DNA from: Sphingomonas alpina
GTDB taxonomy: Bacteria; Pseudomonadota; Alphaproteobacteria; Sphingomonadales; Sphingomonadaceae
Length of the DNA: 64,000 nucleotides
Reading direction: 5' to 3'
Assembly: GCF_014490665.1 (NCBI RefSeq)
Contig: NZ_CP061038.1
Coordinates: 2,790,001 to 2,854,000 of the forward strand
In this document: positions 7,217 through 52,870 of the stretch, piece after piece
Numbering within the stretch: position 1 is the stretch's first letter
Layout of the letters: the number at the start of each line of letters is the position of its first letter
Made by a program: the position numbers and the translations under genes
The notes under the pieces: model-generated
Seen by the model: only the letters and a program-made list of their open reading frames with translations
Told to the model about the DNA's origin: nothing
Databases searched by the model: none

Positions 7217-7295
7217 CGATTCAACCCGGGCGCGACCCATGGCAGCGGGGCGGCGAACGGAGCACCATCGCGTATTCCGCCACGCTCTTTCTCAT
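7217..7295 (-). repeat. Composite repeat module A, copy 1
   Basis: Read on the minus strand it starts ATGAGAAAGAGCG (7295-7283) and ends GGTTGAATCG (7226-7217). It is directly joined to the CTGTTAT-type cluster at 7319-7487, in the opposite orientation to copies 2 and 3, which read on the plus strand. Confidence 0.75.
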
Positions 7296-7318
7296 GCTGA
7301 ATCAGACGATGAATTCGT

Positions 7319-7487
7319 CCGCTGTTATGGCGATAACAGGGGTGGCGCGACCCCTGTTATGTTGGATTTGACCGCTGTTATCCATAACAGCGGTAATCGA
7401 CCGCAACACATTGGAAAAACACCGATAAACCGGATGCACAATCCAACTTAACAGGGGTCGTTTCTTTTTTCCAAATAACAGCGGTGG
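7319..7487 (-). repeat. CTGTTAT inverted-unit cluster, copy 1
   Basis: Seven copies of CTGTTA(T) or its complement lie in 170 bases. Two families of flanking bases occur, CCGCTGTTAT/ATAACAGCGG and CCCCTGTTAT/ATAACAGGGG. ACCGCTGTTA (7371-7380) pairs with TAACAGCGGT a few bases later. The ACCCCTGTTATGTTGGATTT segment at 7350-7369 pairs over about 18 bases with AATCCAACTTAACAGGGGT (7440-7458). With module A copy 1 this fills the gap 7206-7623; no gene is seen there. Confidence 0.8.
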
Positions 7488-32700: not shown

Positions 32701-32870
32701 CCCCCTGTTCTTTCCGAAAAAAAGCGCACCCCTGTTATGTTGGACATGGAACGCAGATTCCTCGATAATTTACAGTAACTTGGATCGCCCACCCCTGTTC
32801 CCGATAACAGGGGTGGCGCCAAGAGATAACAGGGGTCAGGTCACCGCTGTTCCTGCCAAAACAGCGGGGT
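32701..32870 (+). repeat. CTGTTAT inverted-unit cluster, copy 2
   Basis: The cluster opens CCCCTGTTCTTTCCGAAAAAAA, the same layout as copies 1 and 3, then CCCCTGTTATGTTGGAC (32730-32746). CCCCTGTTCCCGATAACAGGGG at 32793-32814 is a hairpin, a further AACAGGGG follows at 32829, and CCGCTGTT/AACAGCGG pair at 32844-32867. No gene is seen in the gap 32577-33003. Confidence 0.8.
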
Positions 32871-32892
32871 GAGGCACTCGATATTTTCTTTT

Positions 32893-32972
32893 CATGTCAA
32901 AGAGCGGGCCGGAATACCGACCGGCACTCCTTGCGCCGTCACGCTGTCAGGATCTGTGTCAGGGTTGAATCG
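32893..32972 (+). repeat. Composite repeat module A, copy 2
   Basis: It runs from CATGTCAAAGAGCG (32893-32906) to GGGTTGAATCG (32962-32972), directly after the copy 2 cluster. The core carries GGCCGG and a paired ACCGGCACT stretch, but is not the same as in other copies, so only the ends are strongly conserved. Confidence 0.75.
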
Positions 32973-52430: not shown

Positions 52431-52628
52431 GCTGCTGCTGGCTGTTCCTGGCTGTTATTTTCCGATTATGTTTTTTGCTGGCTGTTATGTTGGATTTCAG
52501 GCCTGAATTTACATGTTTTCTCAGATGTTTAACCCAGGCTGGCTGTTATCGGAATAACAGCCATGGAACAGCCAGCTAACAGCCAAAGAACAGCCAGCCT
52601 GCTGGCTGTTATCGCCCGGAACAGCCAG
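52431..52628 (+). repeat. CTGTTAT inverted-unit cluster, copy 3
   Basis: Ten or more units occur, all with the flank GGCTGTT(AT) or its complement AACAGCC, unlike the CCCCTGTT and CCGCTGTT flanks of copies 1 and 2. GGCTGTTATCGGAATAACAGCC (52541-52562) is a clean hairpin. The block GGCTGTTATGTTGGAT (52480-52495) matches the TGTTATGTTGGA block of the other copies. Confidence 0.82.
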
Positions 52629-52656
52629 GGACGCGCGGTGCGGTATTTTTTCCGGT

Positions 52657-52733
52657 CATGAGAAAGAGCGTGGCGGGTGCAAGAGCATTCCGCCGGGCGC
52701 TACGCTTTCATGAGTGGGGCTGGGGTTGAATCG
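52657..52733 (+). repeat. Composite repeat module A, copy 3
   Basis: CATGAGAAAGAGCGTGGCGG (52657-52676) is identical over its first 14 bases to copy 1, and GGTTGAATCG closes it (52724-52733). It directly follows the copy 3 cluster. With the palindrome at 52793-52851 it fills the gap 52419-52870, which has no gene. Confidence 0.75.
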
Positions 52734-52792
52734 GTTTTTACCCGGACGTCACCCCGGACTTGTTTGAGGCCTATCCCCTTAAGACAAGAAAG

Positions 52793-52851
52793 CTTGTGTC
52801 CCCGCGAAGGCGGGGGCCCAGTCTGGGCTCCCGCCTTCGCGGGAGCACAAG
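52793..52851. repeat. REP-like palindrome before sufA end
   Basis: Two 29-base arms (52793-52821 and 52823-52851) around one base form a long hairpin with a CGCGAAGGCGGG core and few mismatches. It lies 20 bases beyond the sufA stop (which is at 52871 on the minus strand) and could serve as the end of the suf transcript. Confidence 0.85.
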
Positions 52852-52870
52852 GAAAGGGGATCCGCCCACC

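Follow-up and report, generated by a model that had tools for sequence, protein, structure and literature searches.

A mobile intergenic repeat of Sphingomonas alpina linked in class and distribution to a subfamily of DUF5681 genes

REP and REPIN repeats, together with their RAYT (TnpA-REP) genes, form the described system that offers the closest comparison with the repeat studied here (Nunvar 2010, PMC2817692; Bertels and Rainey 2011, PMC3116915). In that system, RAYT partner genes remain at their locus even though the adjoining repeats vary; these repeats preserve their palindromy, and the partner genes show lower conservation than the genes next to them (Nunvar 2010, PMC2817692). The element of S. 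alpina resembles REP/RAYT in being a dispersed, extragenic, palindromic repeat found near gene 3' ends in several classes per genome, in having mutually distinct partner genes that are each preceded by the same repeat as the dispersed one, and in a partner gene that stays at its locus as the repeat changes and that, at one locus, is less conserved than its neighbor. It differs in its partner, which is a DUF5681 gene whereas RAYT is an HUH transposase, in its size and build (~275 bp, comprising ~8 units in an array plus a distinct tail, and not one or two hairpins of 20 to 40 bp), and in having neither a GTAG nor a CGTC head and an array that lies upstream of the gene only. By this comparison, the element is not a member of the REP/RAYT family, yet by analogy it would work like one. 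A literature search on DUF5681 and on sphingomonad or extragenic repeats, judged by title and start of abstract and with subscription papers largely outside its coverage, returned no description of the element, the one paper listed for DUF5681 concerning a Salmonella phage, and recombinase-in-trio (RIT) elements as its identity gave no lead in the literature search.

The window, i.e., the whole stretch of 64,000 nucleotides of S. alpina DNA analyzed here, contains 14 occurrences of the word CTGTTAT where 1.7 are expected, a count attained in 0 of 100 shuffles, and four occurrences of TGTTATGTTGGA with at most one mismatch where 0.07 are expected. An initial annotation of the window had reported three clusters of these units, and the clusters are indeed present at the places given. 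However, the ends proposed for them were too short, since all three copies continue for ~100 nt to a conserved TTGAATCG and the tail had been missed. The ordered layout described for them, with units, block, AT-rich middle, and inverted units, was recovered, except that it omitted this tail and that the copies do not share one orientation: both the core and the tail of copy 1 read on the minus strand, from 7487 down to 7217. Each copy is thus a ~275-bp intergenic element (median length from the first unit to TTGAATCG of 275.5 bp, range 232 to 371). Its 5' part opens with two to three direct NNNN-CTGTT units and a run rich in A or T; next come a direct unit that extends to CTGTTAWGTTGGA, the AT-rich core, and a convergent pair, the block between the direct units and the core being TGTTAWGTTGGA. 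The 3' part is a row of inverted AACAG-NNNN units spaced 11 bp apart, and the element ends in a ~90-nt tail that contains AAAGAGC and closes with TTGAATCG. Among gene-less tails, AAAGAGC is present in 74 of 78 and GAATC in 78 of 78, these 78 forming the tail-profile set, whose profile favors tails of the AAAGAGC/GAATC type.

Copy 3, of the CTGG type, spans 52438 to 52733 on the plus strand from its first direct unit to TTGAATCG, with ends suggested by non-orthologous copies. Its CTGTTATGTTGGA block lies at 52482 to 52494 (pattern counts and core alignment A2) and its conserved tail at 52642 to 52733 (alignment A3), beyond the coordinates first annotated, with AAAGAGC at 52663 to 52669 and TTGAATCG at 52726 to 52733. 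Copy 2, of the ACCS type with mixed CCCC and CCGC units, occupies 32702 to 32972 on the plus strand, where AAAGAGC at 32899 to 32905 and TTGAATCG at 32965 to 32972 mark the tail. Copy 1, also of the ACCS type, is inverted (7217 to 7487, minus strand), its tail marks appearing on the plus strand as GCTCTTT at 7284 to 7290 and CGATTCAA at 7217 to 7224; the core model R1 scores it at 58.4 bits over 7384 to 7483 on the minus strand. Just 3' of copy 3, at ~52790 to 52860, lies a separate palindromic repeat rich in CCGCCTTCGCGGG, outside the element and by eye similar to GC-rich REP-like palindromes. Two further peculiarities of certain copies were seen elsewhere in the genome. A CTGG copy (L056, near C1:4,400,400) holds ~11 tandem AACAGCCAGCT units, forming an 11-bp minisatellite within the element. 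By eye, six GCCC copies (L040, L046, L050, L057, L061, and L062) seem to continue past their usual limits into inverted flanks that match each other, TTTTCGATC.GAGTTGATC on the 5' side and GATC.GTTCAACTCGAAAA on the 3' side.

In the S. alpina genome, a single contig of 5,197,460 bp, CTGTTATGTTGGA is present in 38 exact copies, and its reversed control does not occur. The sequence-only core model R1, which was built from these 38 copies and favors copies resembling them, gave 106 matches at E ≤ 0.01 when the best 150 candidates were scored. At the same threshold, 66 matches were found in Sphingomonas sp. ERG5 and 27 in QA11, and with 19, 11, 8, and 3 matches in the others, six other genomes hold further copies; absence from relatives, which the initial annotation had named as grounds for abandoning its reading, is thus not what was found. 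A single exact CTGTTATGTTGGA also occurs in each of two other genera of the family (G057:C1:2786760 and G071:C1:778109), where it may be a chance match or a distant copy. A local profile of the same core alignment yielded 85 S. alpina copies in fetched stretches, and the S. alpina counts given below rest on these 85; outside them stand the remaining core matches of the 106, window+7320, which is a second reading of copy 1, and the L113 array, which the core profile missed.

The possibility of a mobile non-autonomous element, which the initial annotation had listed among others, gained support from these 106 matches and from one recent duplicate. The copies L287 and L306 share 98.3% identity over 288 bp within unrelated flanks, the identity running 7 nt past TTGAATCG, and no target duplication is visible for this pair. 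Element boundaries were judged from same-genome copies at different loci, this pair being the clearest: among 166 such pairs with >78% identity, 106 begin within the first unit and 66 end 0 to 2 nt after TTGAATCG, the others stopping earlier or slightly later. The L306 site in ERG5 carries no element between flanks of 87 to 89% identity, which indicates that the duplication is younger than the split or that the copy was lost; the site holds ~130 bp of unrelated sequence and is therefore not a clean empty site. In agreement with the initial annotation, the copies are intergenic, all 84 with callable neighbors (84 of 85) lying between genes. They favor convergent gaps (38 of 83 gaps holding copies versus 38 of 236 other gaps of >60 nt; odds ratio 4.4, P = 1.8e-7, gene calls being made by our own codon-usage script), the rest being in tandem (34) and divergent (11) gaps.

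The four nucleotides preceding CTGTT in each unit, hereafter the specifier, sort the copies into classes. Within a copy, 0.434 of unit pairs have identical specifiers versus 0.117 after shuffling (500 shuffles, maximum 0.139; 85 copies, 706 units), which bears out the earlier observation that agreement among units holds inside a copy but not from one copy to another. Assigned by a scripted majority rule, the 85 copies comprise 36 ACCS, 18 GCCC, 18 CTGG, 10 xxTG, 2 CTCC, and 1 other. This agreement had been taken as covariation, i.e., as the sign of a fold under selection. However, units in the same direction agree as well as those able to pair (inverted-inverted 0.483, direct-inverted 0.444, direct-direct 0.362), so that the within-copy agreement is mostly that of a shared specifier and not mainly a sign of folding. 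Nor do partners always carry the matching change: in the 36 mixed CCCC/CCGC copies, a match is seen for 40 of the 59 adjacent hairpin pairs, compared with 337 of 674 other unit pairs. What stands of the folding claim is that this match of hairpin partners exceeds chance (position-controlled shuffle, P = 0.007), and, as the same-class pair L048/L246 moreover differs by CCCC versus CCGC in three units at once, local palindromy has some weight. Over 750 positions of hairpin arms, 547 are Watson-Crick, 48 G-T, 26 A-C, and 129 other, which is a weak asymmetry between G-T and A-C.

The spacing of the inverted units is regular, 215 of 223 gaps measuring 10 to 12 bp (142) or 20 to 23 bp (73). Within the 73 longer gaps, the middle matches AACAG at 2 or fewer of 5 positions in 39 (51 of 73 in the control) and at 4 of 5 in 18, as a decayed unit would. 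Such spacing suits proteins placed on one face of double-stranded DNA, and the 11-bp period could come partly from tandem duplication; direct units peak at 10, 28 to 30, and 63 to 65 bp, which are not helical turns.

The association that gives these arrays a candidate partner is with genes of a DUF5681 (PF18932) subfamily, and it lends support to the protein-binding array that the initial annotation had also considered. S. alpina has five DUF5681 genes at E ≤ 0.001, and all five have an array directly upstream, so that the repeat dispersed in the genome is also found beside the partner gene, on its upstream side only; two of the 38 exact CTGTTATGTTGGA copies lead directly into such a gene. The five gene arrays belong to five different classes (GCCC, ACCS, xxTG, CTCC, and CTGG), for which the probability by chance is about 0.01 with approximate class counts, and 80 of the 81 gene-less copies fall into the classes of the five genes, the exception being L303 by the unit table. 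In four of the five genes, the reading frame passes through TTGAATCG a few codons after the start (the L113 gene starts further down), and at least 90% of 87 homologues conserve the Glu-Ser that TTGAATCG encodes. Gene-less copies resemble MITEs in being small, intergenic, and multi-copy and in that 32 of 78 gene-less tails retain a start codon positioned and framed as in the partner gene; unlike for MITEs, array and tail can differ in history, and no target duplication is visible for L287/L306, the pair without a clean empty site in ERG5. One locus, L052 (near C1:3,827,500), has an ACCS and a CTCC array in tandem before one tail.

This linkage extends beyond S. alpina. The linked gene is PF18932 in 9 of 9 tested loci. 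Across 8 genomes, 19 distinct subfamily loci were read upstream (L142, cut by a contig end, stands outside this count), and 18 have at least four units, the L144 array being degenerate; outside S. alpina, this corresponds to 13 of 14 loci in seven Sphingomonas genomes, again with L144 as the degenerate one. The other DUF5681 genes share the Pfam domain and the KGxSGNPxGRP motif with the array-linked subfamily, but the array signature is missing from the 66 such loci that the search returned: the GATTCAA/GAATC pair is absent from the start of every one, and CTGTT or AACAG words number 0 to 3 per 560 nt in 65 of them and 4 in L162, several of these genes lying by eye behind a methyltransferase-like gene. 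In QA11, where 17 gene-less copies were read (of 27 matches), the TTCC unit of the array preceding the L138 gene recurs in 14, all but L345, L351, and L355, and the full TCCG/TTCC/TCCG set of L138 in 10, while TTCC is found in 0 of 85 S. alpina copies. Among 101 Sphingomonas genomes, the five with array cores (E ≤ 1e-4) are also the five with the DUF5681 subfamily (E ≤ 1e-20), a co-occurrence that is partly built in because gene-linked arrays also match the core model. One of the five, G278, has a single weak core match; its four further DUF5681 matches fall outside the array reading.

Scoring 8,000 candidates identified 1,400 DUF5681 homologues. One array-linked protein used as a tblastn query had no match in 72,556 plasmid and 50,697 phage records. 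Array-linked and other DUF5681 proteins alike have relatives in phage families without an assigned function (PHROG 26239, 9 of 9 members), and because of these phage relatives a small-terminase/pac-site function was considered as a conceivable analogy; five phage-family DUF5681 loci were examined, with long downstream open reading frames (ORFs) in two. Searches of NCBIfam, PADLOC, and PDB sequences returned weak matches only (best E values of 0.0042, 0.083, and 0.83, respectively). An AlphaFold model from 9 sequences was poor (mean pLDDT 61.8), and with it Foldseek returned nothing at E ≤ 0.001 and hence no structural support for DNA binding. A second small ORF (LARxHT..ALDAIA..LLNRGWGRIG) lies 3' of DUF5681 at L036 and L115; as it is present at 2 of 9 loci and the L036 ORF has no Pfam match, it does not look like a part of the system.

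Orthologous sites were compared with ERG5, a relative available as a draft assembly whose flanks mostly align at 83 to 93%. Thirteen element pairs entered the comparison, which stands apart from L053/L258 (degenerate in ERG5), the gene locus L112/L134, and partial alignments. Six of the 13 keep their class with a core identity of 0.61 to 0.84, and two differ in variant units alone (0.77 each). The remaining five differ in class, namely, window copy 3 (CTGG in S. alpina, xxTG in ERG5), L055, L296, L307, and L305, with a core identity of 0.55 to 0.68 versus a background of 0.63 (standard deviation 0.07) and tails at 0.71 to 0.85. In two of them, window copy 3 and L296, the orthologous copy gives the best tail match among all S. 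alpina copies, yet by core it falls to rank 67 and 80 of 85, respectively; this points to a replacement of the array as a block beside a retained tail. The L307 pair (core rank 6) is compatible with a change in place, and the L055 (tail rank 28) and L305 pairs speak clearly for neither. Core divergence alone is no proof of replacement, since the same-class pair L059/L313 is equally diverged (core at background level, 0.61, rank 29). At least two orthologous arrays have an unrelated core together with different units and thus did not change pair by pair. At seven loci of ERG5, a single tail is preceded by two arrays that differ in class, which may be how replacement starts; the tandem arrays of L052 are their S. 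alpina counterpart.

The DUF5681 gene loci are kept in place between species. At the mutS locus, the DUF5681 protein is 69% identical between S. alpina and ERG5, compared with 95% for MutS, and the array class is xxTG in the former and xxAC in the latter. Faster change of DUF5681 is clear at this one of three loci, the other two being mixed in a listing that includes some unreal ORFs. ERG5 has one close subfamily gene, of class xxAC, and two distant DUF5681 matches (E values of 2e-17 and 3e-16), while its 37 copies read include 20 xxTG, 5 GCCC, and 3 ACCS. For these three classes, ERG5 has no known cognate gene, as judged from a draft assembly and from the array of the close subfamily gene. 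Because the ERG5 xxAC gene sits at the locus of the S. alpina xxTG gene, the ERG5 xxTG copies would fit remnants of an earlier specificity.

Several other explanations were weighed against this evidence. A structured RNA, regulatory or located at 3' ends, would fold through the inverted units with selection acting on their pairing, and the well-kept palindromic pairs, the excess of matching hairpin partners in mixed copies, and the preference for convergent gene ends, where copies could be transcribed, agree with it. We nevertheless consider this improbable, as same-direction units agree as much as pairable ones, RNAalifold on 35 copies finds no consensus pair in the tail, the strand of the A/T run differs by eye between classes, and the unpaired core differs together with the units at some orthologous sites. 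Rfam at gathering thresholds reports tRNA alone in the window, with no family reaching the gathering score at the copies. This disfavors the RNA option of the initial annotation, and a long tail hairpin, suggested by one copy, was ruled out by the same RNAalifold result. A comparably small chance is given to a host system in which DUF5681 proteins would have a nucleoid or regulatory role, with the arrays as their sites, and in which selection, not selfish copying, would have spread the arrays. The stability of the gene loci, the regular spacing of inverted units, and a GANTC site in all 78 tails of the tail-profile set, which we take to be a CcrM-type site, would be expected of it, but the distribution is patchy (5 of 101 genomes), a recent duplication lies in unrelated flanks, and convergent ends are preferred over promoter regions.

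Two further explanations accept the mobility of the copies and assign it to another agent. If they were miniature insertion-sequence copies, with DUF5681 as a mere passenger or a host gene that received the element, then the extended inverted terminal stretches seen by eye in some GCCC copies and the absence of a gene for most ERG5 classes would follow readily. This is unlikely, though less so than the RNA or the host system, given that gene and array occur together in the same 5 of 101 genomes, that the gene-linked arrays of S. alpina span the classes of the gene-less copies, and that the subfamily frame, except at L113, runs through the element end with its conserved E and S. Membership of a REP/REPIN family moved by a Y1 (HUH) RAYT transposase is the least probable of all. 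The ecology is the same, with extragenic palindromes, convergent ends, and partner genes fixed while repeats change, and a short Y1-transposase-like fragment lies just 3' of the ACCS-class DUF5681 gene (L060, near C1:4,719,000). However, this fragment scores 19.4 bits, below the PF01797 cut-off of 23, PF01797 has 0 matches at E ≤ 0.001 in the S. alpina genome (the same search was positive in 5 of 14 controls), and no head tag is apparent (GT[AG]G in 4 of 111 hairpins versus 6 of 111 random, CGTC-like in 15 versus 19); RAYT ownership of the arrays was rejected on these three grounds.

Altogether, the explanation that we favor as probable is that each cluster represents one copy of a DNA repeat that is mobile but non-autonomous and has its own dedicated recognition gene, DUF5681, resembling REP-RAYT without RAYT. 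The element is multi-copy, recently mobile, and intergenic, differs in class at fixed sites, and is linked in class and distribution to a DUF5681 subfamily. All of the evidence is comparative, and binding and mobilization by DUF5681 are what we infer from it. We propose a model in which the DUF5681 protein would bind units of its own class on double-stranded DNA, would regulate its own gene through the array in front, and would drive or target the spread and replacement of matching arrays. A change in DUF5681 specificity would then pull the arrays along, protein and specifier changing together as RAYT and REP do. Cutting and joining would likely depend on a partner or on host recombination, because DUF5681 has no recognized catalytic domain. 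A bolder and more tentative proposal, which we hold to be possible though not the likelier outcome, is that DUF5681 founds a class of repeat partners, i.e., a small non-HUH sequence-specific factor that would read the 4-nt specifier, seed and replace arrays chromosome-wide, and switch specificity together with the array of its own promoter, as an independent re-invention of REP-RAYT.

Our study gives PF18932, a domain of unknown function, a testable partner in the form of a defined DNA array. Should DUF5681 indeed read the specifier, the system would represent a second, unrelated solution to the puzzle, posed by REP-RAYT, of how repeats persist in bacterial chromosomes while their tag changes. 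Moreover, in that case the S. alpina genes and their arrays would constitute a natural set of paralogues with matched sites in which the evolution of DNA specificity could be followed.
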